Shown: positions 50,255 to 59,480 of the stretch, in pieces | How positions within the stretch are numbered: position 1 is the first letter of the stretch | Layout of the letters: each line of letters opens with the position of its first letter | Notes under the pieces: model-generated | Told to the model about the DNA's origin: nothing | The model's database searches: none | The model's input: the letters and a program-made list of their open reading frames with translations, nothing else | NCBI RefSeq assembly: GCF_907165195.1 | Contig: NZ_OU015584.1 | Location: 682,001 to 746,000, forward strand | Length of the DNA stretch: 64,000 nt | DNA from: Parvicella tangerina | GTDB lineage: Bacteria > Bacteroidota > Bacteroidia > Flavobacteriales_D > Parvicellaceae | Direction: 5' to 3' | Translations under genes and position numbers: made by a program

Positions 50255-53200
50255 TTAAATTTCAATCCCCATTACCAGGACGTCATCCATCTGTTGACGC
50301 TCTCCTTTCCATTCATAAAAGAAGTCTTTAATTGAATTGCTCTGTTCTTTCATATCTTGTTGACAGATTTGATCCAGCAATTCTTGAAATACTTTCATTT
50401 TCATTTTGTGGTTTGAAGGACCACCAAATTGGTCTGCATATCCATCGGAGAAAATATAGAGTTTATCTCCTTTTCTGATTTCAATTTCTTTGGTTTCAAA
50501 GCTTTTTGTGCCAAGAATACCTCCAATTGAGTAGCGATCTCCTTTTACAATATTTCGATTGCCATTTCGGTAAACATACAATGGACGCATGGCACCAGCA
50601 AATTTGACAATGTTCTTTTCTTCATCGAGAACGATAATGGCTACATCCATACCATCTCGGTTACTGTCCAGGTCATCCGTTTGTTTCAGAACCTTTACAA
50701 TGCTATCATTAATCTGGCGTAGAATCATGGCGGGGTTATCCAATGATTCTGGATTCAAGGATTCTCTGAGTAGAATGTGAGAAATCATACTCATAAACCC
50801 TCCGGGAACACCATGGCCGGTACAGTCTGCACAAATAAGTATTTTCTTTCCGTCTATTTCCGAACACCAATAGAAATCTCCCGAAACGATATCTCTGGGT
50901 CTAAAGAATACAAATGATTTTGGAAACAATTCATTGAGGTACTGATCTGTTGGTAGAATGGCACTCTGTATACGCTGTGCATAATTTATACTGTCTGTGA
51001 GGTCCTTATTGATTTCTTCAATTTTATTCTTTTGTTCTACCACTTCGCGTGTTCTTAAAGCTAAATCATGCTTCAACTTTTCCTGGTACCTGATAAATGA
51101 ACGCTCACGGTACTTGATTACGCCAAAAACTGCCAATGCTAATACGGTGAAACACGAGATATAAAACCACCACTCTTTCCAATAGGGCTTGTCTACTACA
51201 ATTTTGATGGTTACCACATTCCCCTCTGTGCCGTCAGCATTAAAACTTTTTACCTTAAAGATGTACTCACCGTCATACATCCCAGTGTAATAGATCGAGT
51301 TTTTGTCGGTTTTATTAGACCATTTATCATCATACCCTTCGAGCATGAATTGAAAGGTGACTTTTTTTGAACCCTTCAAGGTTAAACCAGCAAGACCAAA
51401 GCCAAATTTGTAAGAGCCGTAAGGCAAGTGAATCTCCTCTTGAATGTCGTAAACGCTGTCGTTAATGTTAATGTATTTCAAACTGGTAATCGGAGGAACA
51501 GTGTTTAGAGAGTCTTTGTCTTCATCATAAAGAACTAAGCCATTCTCCGTTCCTAGCCACAACTCATTCTTGAATAAGTTTGCTGAGGCTCTGAGGAAAC
51601 GATCATTCAGTCCAAAATACTCGTCATAAGTTGTACAGGTTTTTTCGTTGTTGTTCCATTTAGACAATCCTTCGTTATGTGAGACCCAGATTCTTCCGTT
51701 AGACAATACACGTATTGCATTACAATAGTTTGAGATCAGACCGTCAAGTGTGGTGATGTTATCGCATCCTCCTTCTTCGTTGAGTTTGAAGAATCCGTTA
51801 CCATTTGAGCAAAACCAGATATTCCCCTCATCGTCTTCATGAATGTCGTTAACTTCAACTACTTGCTGTCCGTCATATATTGGAAGGTTGGTGATTTCAT
51901 CATCTACAATCTTTGATATATAAGCACTGTTTGTGCCGATATATAATTCGCCAGAGCTGGATAAATAAAATGCTCCGATGGCATTGTGGGGAAGTCCAGT
52001 TGTAATGTTGTAAATACGAATTCCCTTGGTGTTCAGGTTATATTTGTAGGCTCCATTGAGCGTTCCTACGTAGAGGTCATCTCCTACCAACTCCAGGTCT
52101 GTGACGGTCTGAGCTAAATTATCCGTGGAAAGGTTGATCGCTTCAAACACATTTGATTCTTTCTTTTTCATAAGAACCCCATTCAGCGCAGTTCCGACAA
52201 ACAACGTTGAGTCTTTATCAAAGATCATGGATGTAATTTGATCATTTGGAAGCCCGTGGTGGATGTCAAATGAGTTAATGACACTTGAATGTTGCTTGTC
52301 ATAATGAGTAATGGTTCCTTTAGAAGCGAAATAAATATCCACATCATTCACCAATACCTGATACGCTGGTTTGTTTTTTGTTCCAGAAGGTGTTTTGAAA
52401 TAGTAGGTGAAGATGTCATCTTCTTTGGATACCAAGCCTTCGCCAAAAGTACCGATCCAAAGTACTCCCTCCCGATCCACAAAACTGGTCTTCACAGCAT
52501 TTGTTTTTAAACCACTATTCTGATTGAATTTTTCCTTGATAAAAAGACTATTGTTGTCAAAGGAACATTTGAATAATCCGCTCTGAAACGTGCTGATCCA
52601 AATATTGTCTTTATCGGTTGAAGCCTCCGTAACTAAGAGCGTTTCGTTGTTGTTCACGAAAGAGATTTCCTTAGCGTCATAGTAACCATTTTCATAAAAG
52701 ATTTCAAAGATGCGACCTGTGTTACTGAATGCTAAGGTGTGGTTGTTAAAGTCAATGATATCAACAATTTGCGTTTCTGGGATGTTTCCAATTTGTTGGG
52801 TCTTGCTCAATGTATTCCCATCTGTTTCATTGTAGAAAATAAAAACTTCAACTCCTTGATCGGTGCCGATTAAAAAGTGGTTGTCTTTTTTTATTTTGAG
52901 ACAATAATATTGACGATCTTTCGAGAGGTCTGGGAAAAAATCTTTATCAATATCTTCTGTGTAGAAGTAAAGACCATAGTTTTGAGCTACGAACCAAATT
53001 CTGCCTTCTTCATCCTCCTCGATGTCGTTGATTTGTGAGTCAATACCTGCACCCACATGCACCTTTCCAAAGCTACCGTCATAAAATATGCTGCTACCAC
53101 CCTGAATATGACCGAACCAGATGTTCCCATTTTTATCTTTGTAGCTTTTCGTAATGTAGTTATCTACTAAATGATCAGCTTTAGTGTACATCTCAACTTT

Positions 53201-53386
53201 TTCGCCATTGTACAATCCGATACCTTCTCCAGTGCTGATAAATAAGAAACCGCGATTATCTTGAATGATGTCATTCACGAAAGTGTTAGATAGCCCCTTA
53301 GATTGAGAAATATATTGGAAGTTATATATCTGTGCATGCGAGACAATGCTGCCAATTAGGAATATAAGACCTAGTAATAACCTCAT
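50255..53386 (-). CDS. Transmembrane Reg_prop sensor with SpoIIE/PP2C phosphatase domain
   Basis: The 1043-residue protein has a signal-like N-terminus and a periplasmic pair of seven-bladed propellers built of two-component regulator propeller repeats (IIQDNRGFLFISTGEGIGLYNGE, DDEGNIWFCSNGNGFFKL). A Y_Y_Y Ig-like domain follows, then one membrane helix at about 745-765 (EWWFYISCFTVLALAVFGVI) and a coiled-coil. The SpoIIE-type PP2C phosphatase runs from about 800 to the end, with metal-site phrases RDIVSGDFYW, ADCTGHGVPGGFMS, FSDGYADQFGG and MDDVLVMGIEI. An outside signal would switch a Ser/Thr phosphatase inside. SiaA and RsbU/P share this phosphatase domain, though their sensors differ. It is 4 bases after the 53391-54356 gene. 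Confidence 0.9.
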   Translation of the reverse strand: MRLLLGLIFLIGSIVSHAQIYNFQYISQSKGLSNTFVNDIIQDNRGFLFISTGEGIGLYNGEKVEMYTKADHLVDNYITKSYKDKNGNIWFGHIQGGSSIFYDGSFGKVHVGAGIDSQINDIEEDEEGRIWFVAQNYGLYFYTEDIDKDFFPDLSKDRQYYCLKIKKDNHFLIGTDQGVEVFIFYNETDGNTLSKTQQIGNIPETQIVDIIDFNNHTLAFSNTGRIFEIFYENGYYDAKEISFVNNNETLLVTEASTDKDNIWISTFQSGLFKCSFDNNSLFIKEKFNQNSGLKTNAVKTSFVDREGVLWIGTFGEGLVSKEDDIFTYYFKTPSGTKNKPAYQVLVNDVDIYFASKGTITHYDKQHSSVINSFDIHHGLPNDQITSMIFDKDSTLFVGTALNGVLMKKKESNVFEAINLSTDNLAQTVTDLELVGDDLYVGTLNGAYKYNLNTKGIRIYNITTGLPHNAIGAFYLSSSGELYIGTNSAYISKIVDDEITNLPIYDGQQVVEVNDIHEDDEGNIWFCSNGNGFFKLNEEGGCDNITTLDGLISNYCNAIRVLSNGRIWVSHNEGLSKWNNNEKTCTTYDEYFGLNDRFLRASANLFKNELWLGTENGLVLYDEDKDSLNTVPPITSLKYININDSVYDIQEEIHLPYGSYKFGFGLAGLTLKGSKKVTFQFMLEGYDDKWSNKTDKNSIYYTGMYDGEYIFKVKSFNADGTEGNVVTIKIVVDKPYWKEWWFYISCFTVLALAVFGVIKYRERSFIRYQEKLKHDLALRTREVVEQKNKIEEINKDLTDSINYAQRIQSAILPTDQYLNELFPKSFVFFRPRDIVSGDFYWCSEIDGKKILICADCTGHGVPGGFMSMISHILLRESLNPESLDNPAMILRQINDSIVKVLKQTDDLDSNRDGMDVAIIVLDEEKNIVKFAGAMRPLYVYRNGNRNIVKGDRYSIGGILGTKSFETKEIEIRKGDKLYIFSDGYADQFGGPSNHKMKMKVFQELLDQICQQDMKEQSNSIKDFFYEWKGERQQMDDVLVMGIEI

Positions 53387-53390
53387 TAAT

Positions 53391-54356
53391 TTATTTAGTC
53401 GGTTTTACGATGAGATTACCTTTGTATTTAGGAATACCTCCAATAGGTATGGTATAAAAAGGCATCGCCTGACCATACTGGTTAGTTACATAAAACACAA
53501 GGTTATTATTCGGACTGTCTTTCGCACTCTTAATGATCTGAATGTCGAGTGAGGTCCCTTTTTCTCTTGAGTTGATATTGTAAACACTCTCAGCACTTTC
53601 ATTATCTCCAGAAAGGGCTAGTTCAACATCTTTGCTTCTAACGCTGAATAGCTTCAGTTCGCCATCATCATCCCCGTCAAAGTTATGCTGCTTTACAGAG
53701 ATTACATTTTCATCTACAAATGGATAGATGTGCGAAATTTGTTTGTGACTTTTATGGAGGCGGAACGTGTATTCAAAAGTAAATGCATTTCCTCCAGGAA
53801 CAGGAATGTTTTCGTTTGGTGAAGTACTTAAAAAGTAACGGTATAAGTTTCCGTCATCACCAGACGTTCCCTCACAAATTAACTTGAAGATGTAGCCAAA
53901 ATATTGTTCGGCATATTCACCCTGCTGAGCATTAAACGGTCCAATAGTCGTCCATTTATTATCATACTTCTCATCGCTGCCAAACTCTTTTTTATAAAGT
54001 AGATTACCACTTTTAAATTGTCCCATTGGGTCAACTTCTCTGGCATCTTGTTCGCTAATACAGCCTTTACCACCATAAAAAGAGAAAAGTGTTGTTGTAT
54101 TGAAGTTTTTTACGCGTTCATCATTCTCTCCTCCCGTTTCTGGGTCAAATATTCGAATGTAAAAAGGTTTGGTGTAGGTTTTAGGAATTGAAAAGAAAAA
54201 CGTTTGACAATGGTCATCGTCACCATACTTTTTAGGTGCTTCATTGCCAAAAGTAACAAGGAATGGAATATTCTCTTCTGGCGCAGGCACACCTTGCCCT
54301 AAACTATTTAGTGTCATTAAACCTAGAATCGCTATTATCAGTACCGCTTTGATCAT
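53391..54356 (-). CDS. Secreted protein of unknown function
   Basis: The 321-residue protein has signal peptide MIKAVLIIAILGLMTLNSLGQ and mostly beta structure (KTYTKPFYIRIFDPETGGENDE, IFKLICEGTSGDDG, FTFEYTFRLHKSHKQISHIYP). I do not recognise it. It lies between the PD40/PKD gene (4-base overlap) and the SpoIIE sensor (4-base gap), so it is probably made together with them and may bind the sensor's propeller. That is an inference from gene order. Confidence 0.7.
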   Translation of the reverse strand: MIKAVLIIAILGLMTLNSLGQGVPAPEENIPFLVTFGNEAPKKYGDDDHCQTFFFSIPKTYTKPFYIRIFDPETGGENDERVKNFNTTTLFSFYGGKGCISEQDAREVDPMGQFKSGNLLYKKEFGSDEKYDNKWTTIGPFNAQQGEYAEQYFGYIFKLICEGTSGDDGNLYRYFLSTSPNENIPVPGGNAFTFEYTFRLHKSHKQISHIYPFVDENVISVKQHNFDGDDDGELKLFSVRSKDVELALSGDNESAESVYNINSREKGTSLDIQIIKSAKDSPNNNLVFYVTNQYGQAMPFYTIPIGGIPKYKGNLIVKPTK

Positions 54357-55738
54357 TCTGCCATGTTTATTGTTTGTCTAAGTCCAATTACTTGATTACT
54401 CTCTCCTGAGTTCCATAGAACGGCTTTTATGACAATTGGTTTCGAGAGAGGCAATGGAATTTGTATTTTTTGATCGGGAATGGTTTGATCATTCACAATC
54501 CAGTAGTGTTCTGAGAAGGATTTTCTGGACCATTTTTGCTCGAGAAAAATTTCGAGATGTTCATCGTTAATTTGTTGGTAAGAAATGACGGGGTATTCAG
54601 CAAAAACACTAATTGACCCTTTAATAATGTCTTCTTCAATTTCAAGCGTTTCATTATCCATTAAGTGACATGAAACCTCGTAAACGCCAGTGTCTTTGTA
54701 GCAATGTTCTATTATAGCACCGTTTTTCTTGGTGCCGTCCCCCAACTCCCACATGTAATCGTATCGGTTTTTATCGAGTATAATCTCATCCTGAAGGGTA
54801 TAGCAAAAATCGATGTTACTCTCTATAAAATCACTAGGTAAAGGAAGGTCTCTTTGAAAGCGGAAGATTCGGTCTTTGCCGTTCTGTCTATTTGACGAGA
54901 AAAAACCTGCTGAGCCAGAAACACTAAAAAATAGAAAATCGTCTGCTGCGGAGTTTATCGGTTCTGGCATCGCGGTTATTTCTCCAGTTTTATTGTTTGA
55001 AAATAAACAACGATAAATATCCAACCCTCCTTTTCCCCCAGGACGATCACTGGCAAAATATAAGGTAGTGCCACATAATCTTGGAAACGTTTCGTTATGG
55101 AGTGTGTTTAATCCATCAATTGGGCTGGGTTGAGACCATCCCTGTTCAGTACGTTTTGTGAAATATAAGTTTGATGTTGTGTCGGTTAGTCCAGTAAATG
55201 AAAAGACCATGGTTTGACCATCTTCACTGATCGTAGGGTTTGAATAGTTCCCATCACCTAAGTTTAGCGGTATTATTTCTCGTTCAGTATATGTGTCAGA
55301 TTCTTGTTCAAAAGATGTTTTGTAAATTGCCAAAGAGAGCTGGGTGCTGTCAGTTTTTAAATTAGAACTAAAAAAACCTTCTCCGGTTTGCTTATGAAAA
55401 AAAATAGGTCCCTCATTCAAAGTAGAGTTTACTTGGGAGGAAAGCATAGTTGCGCTGGACTTTTTTTCAGGAGTGAAGTCACTTTTACAGTCAATTTTGT
55501 ACAAGTTAAGAAAGCGAGAGTTGTTTTCATTTACTACATGTTTAGCTTTTTTTGCTTTAGCATTGCTGCAGTAATAAAGTTCACCGTAGTGATAGTCAGT
55601 TGCGAAAACCTGTTCAGAGCCTCGTCCAACCTTAACCATCTTCACCTCATAGGCCTGCGCATGGTGAGTAGCGTTCAAAGCACTACAAACACTCAGGAAT
55701 AAAACAATAATATATGTATTGATTTTTGCTTTACGCAT
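54353..55738 (-). CDS. Secreted PD40 propeller protein with PKD-like domain
   Basis: The 461-residue protein has signal peptide INTYIIVLFLSVCSALNATHHA. PD40/WD40-like repeats follow (TISEDGQTMVFSFTG, CGTTLYFASDRPGGKGGLDIYRC), then a PKD-like domain (DYMWELGDGTKKNGAIIEHCY, TGVYEVSCHLMD) and a C-terminal Ig-like segment. There is no OmpA or T9SS sorting domain. I start at ATG 55738; TTG 55747 would add three residues. It is the first gene of the minus-strand run that contains the SpoIIE sensor, and it may report or anchor an envelope state to the sensor, as PD40 proteins do in T9SS-linked operons. Confidence 0.75.
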   Translation of the reverse strand: MRKAKINTYIIVLFLSVCSALNATHHAQAYEVKMVKVGRGSEQVFATDYHYGELYYCSNAKAKKAKHVVNENNSRFLNLYKIDCKSDFTPEKKSSATMLSSQVNSTLNEGPIFFHKQTGEGFFSSNLKTDSTQLSLAIYKTSFEQESDTYTEREIIPLNLGDGNYSNPTISEDGQTMVFSFTGLTDTTSNLYFTKRTEQGWSQPSPIDGLNTLHNETFPRLCGTTLYFASDRPGGKGGLDIYRCLFSNNKTGEITAMPEPINSAADDFLFFSVSGSAGFFSSNRQNGKDRIFRFQRDLPLPSDFIESNIDFCYTLQDEIILDKNRYDYMWELGDGTKKNGAIIEHCYKDTGVYEVSCHLMDNETLEIEEDIIKGSISVFAEYPVISYQQINDEHLEIFLEQKWSRKSFSEHYWIVNDQTIPDQKIQIPLPLSKPIVIKAVLWNSGESNQVIGLRQTINMAE

Positions 55739-55835
55739 TCTTGTCAAACACTCACTACAATTCTAAAGATACTAACAATTGTATACTCGGCAAAATTCGT
55801 TCCGAAAAAGAAATTTTACTTTGGCAAAATAATTG

Positions 55836-55863: not shown

Positions 55864-56610
55864 ATGAAAAAAATAATTCTCTCTATAGCGGTTGCGAGTT
55901 CATTGGTGATGACCAGTTGTGATGTGTTAACAGAGGTTGCGGATACAGCGATTGGTGCTACTACAAATGGCTCTGGAACTGCTGCACCTTCTTTAACGAA
56001 TGATGAGGTAATTGCAGGTCTTAAAGAAGCTTTAACAGTGGGGATCAAAAATGGAGCTGGAATGGCTTCAAAGATGGATGGATTTCTAAAAAATTCAGAA
56101 ATTCGACTACCTTTCCCGCCAGATGCTCAAAAAGTAAAGGAAAAAGCAATTGATCTTGGGCTCCAGAATAAGGTAGATGAATTTGAAACTACGCTTAACA
56201 GAGCTGCAGAAGAAGCTTGTAAGGAGGCTGCACCGATTTTTGTGGATGCGATCAAAAATATGTCTATTGCCGATGGCTTTTCTATTTTGAAAGGTGAGGA
56301 TAATGCAGCAACGAATTACCTAAAAGATAAAACGACAGCAAGCCTGAAGACTGCGTTTGCGCCAAAAGTTCAGGCTGCTATTGATAAGGTGCAACTGACT
56401 AAATACTGGGAGCCGCTTACTAAGGCATATAATACCTCAACCATGTTCTCAGGAAAAGAGGAAGTGAATACCGACCTCAATGAGTATGTAACAGACAGAG
56501 CGATCAGTGGATTGTTTTTATTAGTTGAAAAAGAAGAGAAAAAGATTAGAAAGGATCCTGTAGCCAGAGTTACGGACATCCTTCAAAAGGTGTTTAGTAC
56601 GTTGGATTAA
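55864..56610 (+). CDS. DUF4197 family lipoprotein
   Basis: The 248-residue protein has a lipoprotein signal (VASSLVMTSC, lipobox Cys19). A helical DUF4197 domain follows (LTNDEVIAGLKEALTVGIKNGAG, IRLPFPPDAQKVKEKAIDLG, FSILKGEDNAATNYLKDKTT, TDRAISGLFLLVEKEEKKIR). The family is frequent in Gram-negative bacteria and of unknown function. A strong terminator follows at 56635-56664. The gene stands alone and diverges from the PD40-SpoIIE run. Confidence 0.9.
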   Translation: MKKIILSIAVASSLVMTSCDVLTEVADTAIGATTNGSGTAAPSLTNDEVIAGLKEALTVGIKNGAGMASKMDGFLKNSEIRLPFPPDAQKVKEKAIDLGLQNKVDEFETTLNRAAEEACKEAAPIFVDAIKNMSIADGFSILKGEDNAATNYLKDKTTASLKTAFAPKVQAAIDKVQLTKYWEPLTKAYNTSTMFSGKEEVNTDLNEYVTDRAISGLFLLVEKEEKKIRKDPVARVTDILQKVFSTLD

Positions 56611-56634: not shown

Positions 56635-56664
56635 AAACGCTATTGTTTTCAATGGCGTTTTTTT
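56635..56664 (+). terminator. Rho-independent terminator between the DUF4197 and nucleoside phosphorylase genes
   Basis: AAACGCTATTG pairs with CAATGGCGTTT (11 bp, one T-G pair) over a TTTT loop, followed by seven T. The T tract ends 11 bases before the ATG of the next gene, so little room is left for that gene's own promoter. Confidence 0.85.
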
Positions 56665-56675
56665 ATTTTTACAAA

Positions 56676-57566
56676 ATGATAAGAACAGAAGTTAGGCATT
56701 CACAGCCCATAGCACCGTCTGAATTGATTATAACCCCAGAGGGGGCGATCTATCACCTTAACCTACGTCCTGAACAGATCGCTAAAAATGTTATTGTGGT
56801 GGGAGATCAATACCGTGTTGAAAGAATATCTAGTCATTTCGATAAGGTAGATCATAAAGTTAGTAAGCGGGAATTTGTTACCCATACTGGTTGGTACAAA
56901 GGGAAACATATTACGGCCCTGTCTACGGGAATAGGTTGCGACAATGTGGACATTGTCATCAATGAACTTGATGCGCTTGCTAATATTGACCTTAACTCAA
57001 GATTACCTAAAGATAGCCATACCTCATTGAATATTGTTCGTTTAGGTACTAGTGGGGCTCTTCAAGAGGATATTCCCGTTGATTCTTTTGTGGCTTCTAC
57101 TCATGGTCTTGGGTTTGATGGTTTAATGGGTTTTTATGATGCTCGTTTTGAAGAGGATGAAATCGAGTTGTTGCAATCGTTTAAACAACAAGTGGACTGG
57201 CCAGCGGATTGTAACCCTCCTTATATCGTCAAAGCAAGTGAAGATTTGTTGAGTAGAATAGGGAATGATATGTATCAAGGAATTACCGCCACGGCAAACG
57301 GATTTTACGGTCCACAGGGGAGGTCATTAAGGTTGAAGCCAAAAGTTGATGATCTCAATGAAAGACTGAACAAATTTGAGCACAATGGTCATCGCATTAC
57401 CAACTTTGAAATGGAGACTTCTGCGTTGTATAGTTTGTCATCCATGCTAGGGCATCATGCAGTTACGGTTTGTGCAATTATTGCAAACAGGTTCGCAAAA
57501 ACCTATAGTAAAGATTATCATATACCGGTGGATGAACTGATCGTAAAAGTGTTAGATCGAATATAA
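56676..57566 (+). CDS. Nucleoside phosphorylase (uridine phosphorylase-like, PNP/UDP family)
   Basis: The 296-residue enzyme has the PNP/UDP family pattern: IVVGDQYRVERISSHFDKV (phosphate-binding Gly-Asp-x-x-Arg), ALSTGIGCDNVDIVINEL, IVRLGTSGALQ, and the Glu and Arg in FEMETSALYSLSSMLG near the end. It would split a nucleoside with phosphate to base and ribose-1-phosphate. Pyrimidine preference is likely from the uridine phosphorylase resemblance, but not certain. The start is ATG 56676, since an upstream TTG-based start would be in the terminator. It is followed 1 base later by the transglutaminase-like gene. Confidence 0.9.
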   Translation: MIRTEVRHSQPIAPSELIITPEGAIYHLNLRPEQIAKNVIVVGDQYRVERISSHFDKVDHKVSKREFVTHTGWYKGKHITALSTGIGCDNVDIVINELDALANIDLNSRLPKDSHTSLNIVRLGTSGALQEDIPVDSFVASTHGLGFDGLMGFYDARFEEDEIELLQSFKQQVDWPADCNPPYIVKASEDLLSRIGNDMYQGITATANGFYGPQGRSLRLKPKVDDLNERLNKFEHNGHRITNFEMETSALYSLSSMLGHHAVTVCAIIANRFAKTYSKDYHIPVDELIVKVLDRI

Positions 57567-57567
57567 T

Positions 57568-58407
57568 TTGAAGGGAAATCAAGAAATAGAAGCGCTCATC
57601 AATTTAGTGGATGATGAGGATGAGAGTATATATTTTCAGGTAAAGGAGAAGTTACTGAGCTACGGCACAGATGCGGTTCCTTATCTGGAAAAAGCTTGGG
57701 AGACGTTAAGGTTTGGAGAAGACTTTCAGAACCGAATTGAGCTGATTATTCACGAAATTCAATTCAAAGATGTACGAGAAGGTTTAAAACAGTGGATTGA
57801 AAGCGGAGGGAAGGATTTACTCAAAGGAGTGCTCTTAATCAATAAACATCAGTACCCGGATTTGGATGTGATGAATATTAGAGCCCAGATCTTGGATATA
57901 GCCGCAATCATTAAGTCTTCTTTCACAGAGAATATGAGTGATCTTCAGAAGGTTTCAACTATTAATAAAGGACTATACGGTCATTTTGGGTTTAGAGGAG
58001 ATAACGATACGTATTACTCGCCTAAAAACTCAATTCTAAGTGACGTGCTGGAAAGGAAAAAGGGGAATCCCTTATTGCTTTCCATACTATATATAGAGGT
58101 AGCCAGAATACTCGAACTGAATGTGGTTGGGATAAATTTACCCCGACACTTTGTGGTCGCCTTGAAAAAAGATGAACAGATCAGTTACTACCTCTCTCCG
58201 TTTAATAGAGGAACAGTCCTAACTTTAGAGGATTTGCATACTTACCTTAAAAAATTGAACTTGCCTATAGAGAATCAGTTTCTGGGCGAGTGTAGTAACT
58301 TGGACATTATTAAACGTGTTCTGCTCAATCTGATCAATAGTTACATGAAGGAAAAAAACAAGGAAAAGCAGGAAGAAGTGAGTAGTTTGTACGAATTATT
58401 CACGTAG
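57568..58407 (+). CDS. Transglutaminase-like SirB1-family protein
   Basis: The 279-residue cytosolic protein has an N-terminal helical part and a transglutaminase-like SirB1_N domain (about 105-200), with FGFRGDNDTYYSPKNSILSDVL, KKGNPLLLSILYIEVA and INLPRHFVVAL. The place of the usual Cys in the core segment is taken by KGNPLLLS, as in many SirB1 proteins, so catalytic activity is doubtful. The start is TTG 57568, one base after the phosphorylase stop; no ATG occurs before the domain. SirB1 proteins often flank prmC/sirB-type loci elsewhere; the link here is only proximity. Confidence 0.82.
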   Translation: MKGNQEIEALINLVDDEDESIYFQVKEKLLSYGTDAVPYLEKAWETLRFGEDFQNRIELIIHEIQFKDVREGLKQWIESGGKDLLKGVLLINKHQYPDLDVMNIRAQILDIAAIIKSSFTENMSDLQKVSTINKGLYGHFGFRGDNDTYYSPKNSILSDVLERKKGNPLLLSILYIEVARILELNVVGINLPRHFVVALKKDEQISYYLSPFNRGTVLTLEDLHTYLKKLNLPIENQFLGECSNLDIIKRVLLNLINSYMKEKNKEKQEEVSSLYELFT

Positions 58408-58530: not shown

Positions 58531-59109
58531 ATGAAAACCTCGCCAAATAGCACCCTGGAAATTTGTCAGGAAAGGTTTGACAAACTTGTCTCATTACACG
58601 TTGATGGGAGTGGTGGGAGTATCTATACTTCTCATGTTGGTGAATTCACCCAAGACTATGTAAATTCTATTTCTGCTGAACTCGAAGAAAGAATGTTTGA
58701 GGATGGAGAGAAGAAAGGGGTTGTTAAAAAGGTTTTCAGTATAATAGTTGAAGGTCTTCAGAATGTGAGGATCCATGGTGAAGAGGATAGTGAAGGGAAT
58801 CAGTCGTCCTTCTTTTTAATTATCCGGGATGATGAATCATTTACCATCTATTTGGGGAATTTAATTCCTTCCAAAATTGAAAAAGATATCCAGAAACGGG
58901 TAGATACCGTGAATAGTCTTGAAAGAGCAGAGCTGAAAGAACTCTATATGAATGTATTGACCAATGGGGTGATTAGCAGCAAAGGCGGAGCAGGATTGGG
59001 TTATATCACGATGTCAATGAAGTCTGGCAATCCACTTGGATGTAATTTCGAGAAAGTGACTGATGAATTAAGTTTGTATGACCTTAAAATCACAGTGAAT
59101 AGAGCGTGA
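58531..59109 (+). CDS. SiaB-family protein kinase (DUF6272)
   Basis: The 192-residue protein belongs to the SiaB group of HATPase-like protein kinases. The N-box helix reads IVEGLQNVRIHGEE with Glu74, Asn78 and His82. The G2 loop is KGGAGLGYITM (about 151-161). Between them is a strand pair (FFLIIRDDESFTIYLGN). In Pseudomonas SiaB phosphorylates SiaC; here the next gene, overlapping by four bases (GTGA), encodes a SiaC homologue. There is no SiaD diguanylate cyclase beside the pair, and the usual SiaA phosphatase is replaced, if at all, by the SpoIIE sensor at 50255-53386. It is transcribed from an ACGTA-type promoter. Confidence 0.85.
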   Translation: MKTSPNSTLEICQERFDKLVSLHVDGSGGSIYTSHVGEFTQDYVNSISAELEERMFEDGEKKGVVKKVFSIIVEGLQNVRIHGEEDSEGNQSSFFLIIRDDESFTIYLGNLIPSKIEKDIQKRVDTVNSLERAELKELYMNVLTNGVISSKGGAGLGYITMSMKSGNPLGCNFEKVTDELSLYDLKITVNRA

Positions 59110-59480
59110 GTACTTTGGAGAGAAATAAGACGAAAAACACACCTGAAATAAAAGCTAGTTTAACGGGTAACAAAGGCGTGATCGAAATCGTAGGAAACTC
59201 GTTTCCAGAGAATGCTAAAAGCTTCTATGCAGATTTGGTTGATTGGCTGAAGTCGAATGAGGAAACGTTGAAAGAAGTGGAGTTCAACAGTGACTTTCAT
59301 TACATGGCAAGTTCTTCCTTGATCTGTTTTTTAGATGTCTTAAGAACAGCAATACAGATTGCAGGAGATGAGAATTGCACATTGAATTGGAAGTACGAAG
59401 AGGATGATGATGATATACTAAAAGTAGGGCAAAACTTCAGTAAAATCCTGTCGCTTAAGATTAACTTGATCCCTTACTAA
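59106..59480 (+). CDS. SiaC-family regulatory phosphoprotein (DUF1987)
   Basis: The 124-residue protein has the DUF1987 pattern: GNSFPENAKSFYADLVDWLKS, then a strand-turn with the phosphorylation site, and FLDVLRTAIQIAG. In studied SiaC the switch residue is a threonine in a Thr-Ser-Ser-type segment. Here the segment reads MASSS at 67-71 (numbered from GTG 59106), so the Thr appears to be replaced by Ala and a Ser would have to be the acceptor. The start is GTG, overlapping the SiaB stop. The 3' end overlaps the convergent membrane protein gene by 20 bases. Confidence 0.85.
   Translation: MSTLERNKTKNTPEIKASLTGNKGVIEIVGNSFPENAKSFYADLVDWLKSNEETLKEVEFNSDFHYMASSSLICFLDVLRTAIQIAGDENCTLNWKYEEDDDDILKVGQNFSKILSLKINLIPY

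Follow-up and report, generated by a model that had tools for sequence, protein, structure and literature searches.

A SiaB-SiaC pair in Parvicella tangerina, a genome without a recognisable diguanylate cyclase, and a putative SiaC-docking stalk on other signalling enzymes of Bacteroidota

SiaC, a DUF1987 protein, is known from work in Pseudomonas as an activator of a diguanylate cyclase. A stretch of 64,000 nt from P. tangerina (NZ_OU015584.1, positions 682,001 to 746,000; here called the window) contains genes for SiaB-type and SiaC-type proteins with no GGDEF gene near them, which raises the question of what SiaC may control in this bacterium.

The two ORFs overlap by 4 bp (Table 1), and the families assigned to them in the first-pass annotation were confirmed. 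SiaB exceeds the cut-offs of the subfamily model NF038262 (112.9 bits vs. 85) and of PF19788 (107 bits vs. 26.6). It can be aligned with P. aeruginosa SiaB (6kko_A, E=1.8e-8), and the alignment includes the GHKL N box with Glu74/Asn78 and the G2 loop GGAGLG, both of which had been recognised before. SiaC scores 85.4 bits with PF09345 (curated cut-off 24.5), and both proteins are alignable to the P. aeruginosa SiaB-SiaC crystal structure 6kko. When an AlphaFold model of SiaC (pLDDT 85, built from an alignment of two sequences only) was used in Foldseek, ranks 1-8 were occupied by P. aeruginosa SiaC (TM 0.77-0.83), followed by the RsbV-type proteins 6m36 and 1vc1. The narrower P. aeruginosa equivalog cut-offs are reached by neither SiaB nor SiaC (for SiaC, 54.5 bits vs. 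150 with NF038265). Judged by sequence and predicted structure, the pair consists of genuine SiaB and SiaC family members in a new setting.

Table 1. Positions in the window of the siaBC genes, their neighbours and the candidate phosphatase operon, with the stalk loci found in other genomes
Feature	Position	Strand	Basis and remarks
siaB-type protein kinase	58531..59109	+	192 aa; NF038262, PF19788, alignment with 6kko_A
siaC-type phosphoprotein, STAS-like fold	59106..59480	+	124 aa; PF09345, 6kko_C/6k4f by sequence, AlphaFold/Foldseek
Switch segment A68-S69-S70-S71	59307..59318	+	Ser69 corresponds to Thr68 of P. aeruginosa
SirB1-like transglutaminase-core protein	57568..58407	+	Directly upstream of siaB; PF13369; 9 other loci
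Nucleoside phosphorylase family protein	56643..57566	+	PF01048; same position in 9 other loci
DUF4197 protein, upstream neighbour	55864..56610	+	PF13852; same position in 8 other loci
SiaA-like sensor phosphatase	50255..53386	-	NF038263 C-terminal match; 6k4e SiaA PP2C
Secreted 321-aa protein, phosphatase operon	53391..54356	-	4-bp gap to phosphatase; kept in genus relative L061
PD40/PKD protein, first gene of phosphatase operon	54353..55747	-	Pfam PD40 and PKD; kept in L061 and L138
Stalk loci, usually beside SiaC	L069-L073, L076, L077, L079-L081, L093-L095, L099-L102, L104-L106		Histidine kinases, class III cyclases, PP2C, GGDEF, or alone

It had been proposed that the usual Thr of the switch segment is replaced by Ala within MASSS, and that the switch is changed. 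This reading was out of register. With phmmer, Y66-M-A-S-S-S-L of the window protein is aligned to Y65-L-N-T-S-S-I of Pseudomonas, so that Y66 corresponds to Y65, M67 to L66, A68 to N67, S69 to T68, S70 to S69 and S71 to S70. The number 68 is common to the Ala in the window and the Thr in P. aeruginosa by chance, because the numbering of the two proteins differs by one residue. In Pseudomonas SiaC, the phosphorylated residue is found where helix 2 begins (PMC7647112). In the predicted structure of the window SiaC, helix 2 comprises residues 69-86 and thus has a Ser as a possible acceptor at its N-terminus, while Ala as the acceptor residue is ruled out by the alignment and the predicted structure. 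The acceptor position holds Ser in all members of a paralogue clade of 12 SiaC sequences with the segment [AS]SSS[LIV][IM] (support 100/98). Besides the window protein, this clade includes sequences from two genomes of the same genus, from the family and from one further family; the underlying tree was made from few columns and its deep forks are not resolved. Compared to P. aeruginosa, the change seen in the sequence is T68S plus N67A, in other words a conservative exchange of the acceptor and an Ala one residue earlier. In Pseudomonas, biofilm formation was still restored by SiaC single mutants including N67A and by the T68A/S69A double mutant, whereas SiaC with all three exchanges, N67A/T68A/S69A, failed to bind SiaD (PMC8457831). 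Since Ser69 is the equivalent of the acceptor and the first residue of helix 2, the switch looks intact. A paralogue in the same genome (L043:7374-7772; genome positions 3233373-3233771) has Ile at the position of Thr68 (YFNISSSK), and the usual site may therefore not be phosphorylated in that protein.

While the SiaB-SiaC pair itself stands, it is less isolated than assumed, since a SiaA-like PP2C phosphatase, overlooked in the first-pass annotation, is encoded in the same window. This protein has a signal peptide, a Reg_prop propeller, a Y_Y_Y domain, a transmembrane helix, a linker and a SpoIIE/PP2C domain, the signal peptide and the transmembrane helix being judged by eye from the sequence. 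Its C-terminal 275 aa match NF038263 (E=1.3e-56), at 192 bits compared to an equivalog cut-off of 700. The match to the PP2C domain of SiaA (6k4e) has E=1.7e-35, and the metal-site motifs GDFY, DCTGHGVPG, SDG and DD are aligned with those of 6k4e. The secreted protein of the phosphatase operon gave no match in a Pfam search. In Flavobacteriales bacterium M30B75 (L061), the phosphatase, the two other operon genes and the SiaBC side are found in the same order, the phosphatase frame of this metagenome-assembled genome ending prematurely. No SiaA-like phosphatase was detected in the flanks examined around the clade SiaC loci in other genera. Because of this, and since the phosphatase gene lies on the opposite strand at a distance of approximately 5 kb, its pairing with SiaBC is uncertain, and we regard it as a candidate partner.

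The genome of P. tangerina (one contig of 3.98 Mb, 99.8% complete) allowed us to ask whether a diguanylate cyclase is present outside of the window. No GGDEF protein exceeds the Pfam cut-off, neither near siaBC, as already noted in the first-pass annotation, nor elsewhere in the genome. A hidden diguanylate cyclase was also considered and rejected: the single GGDEF match below threshold (genome positions 2663765-2665204) has a TackOD1 domain and no GGDEF motif. This TackOD1 protein (L046:3766-5205), whose end resembles a degenerate GGDEF domain, is flanked by a gene for a family 2 glycosyltransferase and an HlyD-like gene. SiaC therefore cannot have SiaD as its output in a genome without diguanylate cyclase. 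Six SiaC and three SiaB proteins are encoded in the genome, together with 32 SpoIIE phosphatases, two class III cyclases, one short RsbW-like kinase and three STAS matches (one of them within a frame of 578 aa). At one paralogue locus (genome positions 3870381-3873723) the genes for a phosphatase, SiaB and SiaC are adjoining. At the level of the genome, the 32 SpoIIE-type phosphatases face six SiaC proteins and three STAS matches as candidate substrates.

SiaC was found in 18 of 296 sampled genomes of the phylum. Among these, six genomes, all belonging to one family, gave several strong GGDEF matches. Seven others gave one weak match each (about 1e-11 to 1e-18), and the remaining five, all from the class of P. 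tangerina, gave none over the cut-off. In its order, 244 of 299 sampled genomes have a SiaC-family match, and the two SiaC genomes checked for GGDEF (that of P. tangerina and G045) lack a match over the cut-off. Three genomes of one genus of the order (G393, G459 and G461) contain 12 to 14 SiaC-family matches each, and in G045 a 364-aa protein that reads as two tandem SiaB-like units (L063:4720-5814) is encoded next to SiaC. No relatives were found in the viral contigs searched.

If SiaD is missing, what could serve as a target? The survey of SiaC gene neighbourhoods across Bacteroidota revealed that most loci outside of the class have no GGDEF partner, and that the gene adjoining SiaC repeatedly encodes a helical segment with the pattern EYxxLxxxYxxLL.....K[LI]T[KR][IV][SG]DxxQxKL. 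Among PDB entries, a profile built from ten such segments, which we call the stalk profile, matched P. aeruginosa SiaD best (7e6g, E=0.017), while a single stalk as query gave nothing useful. The alignment covers the SiaD segment that contains S82, D83 and Q86 and, weakly, a second segment containing S50 and Q54; all five residues are mapped contacts to SiaC (PMC8457831). In 17 SiaC genomes it matched 22 proteins from 12 genomes with E<=2e-9, twelve of them outside the set used to build the profile. A stalk gene is located within about 2.5 kb of 16 of the 20 SiaC genes outside of the class, which according to a rough binomial estimate is far beyond chance. The 22 stalk proteins comprise nine histidine kinases (eight assigned by Pfam and the ninth from its sequence), five class III cyclases, two GGDEF proteins and one PP2C phosphatase, besides four proteins that are small or stand alone and a short unassigned frame. 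The motif and the adjacency suggest that SiaC may also bind stalks other than that of SiaD. We did not find this stalk-effector arrangement described in the literature searched, most subscription papers falling outside of it.

In the genome of P. tangerina the stalk profile had no match at E<=10, and none was obtained at E<=0.1 in four relatives of the same class that possess SiaC; one SiaC genome outside of the class (G109) also remained without match. With neither a GGDEF protein nor a recognisable stalk in the genome, the output should therefore be something other than SiaD or a recognisable stalk effector. In line with this, the target-facing residues are unlike those of stalk-binding SiaC proteins: in the canonical SiaC of the order, positions that contact the stalk carry the exchanges D29R, Y31I, D79K, L107A and D114I, each in about 30 of 31 sequences, and the clade of the window protein is altered differently, with N67 replaced by Ala or Ser and K72 by Ile or Met. 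Such altered and strongly conserved contact positions fit a different conserved partner, without proving it. The linkers of SpoIIE proteins (..ITDSINYAKRIQ..) were considered as a SiaC-binding stalk. Their motif is faintly stalk-like but is likewise seen where SiaC is accompanied by stalk partners, and the profile comparison gave no match (probability 2%, one column), so they were rejected. The inspected neighbours of the order's canonical SiaBC, mostly housekeeping genes (coaE, cmk, truA), were likewise discarded as outputs.

It is possible, and we tentatively keep this explanation in mind, that the target is still a stalk-type effector such as a histidine kinase, a class III cyclase or a PP2C phosphatase, with a stalk that has diverged beyond the profile. 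The frequent stalk neighbours and their outputs outside of the class would be in agreement with it, as would the two class III cyclases of P. tangerina and the core segment NTSSSK, which is retained in 29 of 31 canonical SiaC sequences of the order; moreover, a profile search that returns nothing could miss a much-diverged stalk. However, the empty searches at permissive thresholds, the lack of a stalk beside any of the SiaC genes examined in the order and the altered contact positions argue against it.

Direct control of a conserved neighbour, namely the transglutaminase-core protein, the nucleoside phosphorylase or the DUF4197 protein, appears unlikely. The gene order DUF4197, nucleoside phosphorylase, transglutaminase-core protein, SiaB, SiaC is kept in about 9-10 loci of the window's SiaC clade, corresponding to about nine genomes of the family, and it was suggested that modulation of adjacent proteins is a general property of DUF1987 proteins (Chen et al., PMC8457831). 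On the other hand, siaB is separated from the upstream genes by a gap of 123 bp, the clade members at L147 and L159 are without these neighbours in the stretch examined, and synteny alone is weak evidence. Finally, action of SiaB-SiaC on a sigma factor or an anti-sigma factor in the manner of RsbV/RsbW is very improbable, since despite the resemblance of the SiaC fold to RsbV, sequence and fold match SiaC and SiaB first, and the genome encodes separate genuine STAS proteins and an RsbW-like kinase.

Thus, we favour, with a probability of roughly 70%, a SiaABC-type partner switch that has been rewired to a target other than a diguanylate cyclase. From the family memberships we infer that SiaB would phosphorylate SiaC on Ser69, and that the SiaA-like phosphatase, responding through its extracytoplasmic propeller sensor to a signal from the envelope, would remove this phosphate; others among the 32 SpoIIE phosphatases could perhaps do so as well. 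We predict that unphosphorylated SiaC then takes hold of a helical element in a signalling protein outside of the known stalk type, as it does with the stalk of SiaD, and gripping would change the oligomeric or active state of the target. The earlier proposal of a partner switch with a new output is thus upheld as far as an output other than SiaD is concerned, in view of the missing GGDEF proteins and the altered surface, and has to be abandoned with respect to a changed switch residue. Our confidence in any particular SiaC target in this genome is low. For Bacteroidota as a whole, we lean towards the view that SiaC acts generally as a clamp under the control of phosphorylation, and that by gripping a portable helical stalk it switches diguanylate cyclases, histidine kinases, PP2C phosphatases and class III cyclases; in the order of P. 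tangerina, SiaC may have moved to a further class of targets with a different binding surface.

These observations matter for several reasons. The SiaC family is near-universal in the order, in which a diguanylate cyclase is missing from both SiaC genomes checked, and elsewhere in the phylum the putative SiaC-docking stalk is found on four kinds of signalling enzyme. The role of DUF1987 in the absence of SiaD becomes a set of testable protein pairs, with predicted links from a phosphatase to a histidine kinase and from a phosphatase to a cyclase.

The closest known system is SiaABCD of P. aeruginosa (PMC7647112, PMC8457831), with which the window shares the SiaB kinase and SiaC phosphoprotein families, a SiaA-type PP2C phosphatase with matching motifs and an acceptor where helix 2 begins. 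In contrast to that system, the genome of P. tangerina has neither SiaD nor a SiaD-type stalk, the acceptor is Ser instead of Thr, Asn67 is replaced by Ala, the phosphatase carries a propeller sensor and belongs to a separate operon, and all three proteins score below the P. aeruginosa equivalog cut-offs. The loci with SiaABC and a stalk effector in other Bacteroidota (L069-L081, L093-L106) have the same SiaA-SiaB-SiaC set and mostly also lack a GGDEF partner, but they possess the stalk, attached to a histidine kinase, a class III cyclase, a PP2C phosphatase or a GGDEF protein or standing alone. The RsbU/RsbV/RsbW and SpoIIE/SpoIIAA/SpoIIAB systems are similarly composed of a PP2C phosphatase, a GHKL kinase and a STAS-like switch protein, whereas SiaC and SiaB constitute separate families, and no link to a sigma factor was seen at the window.
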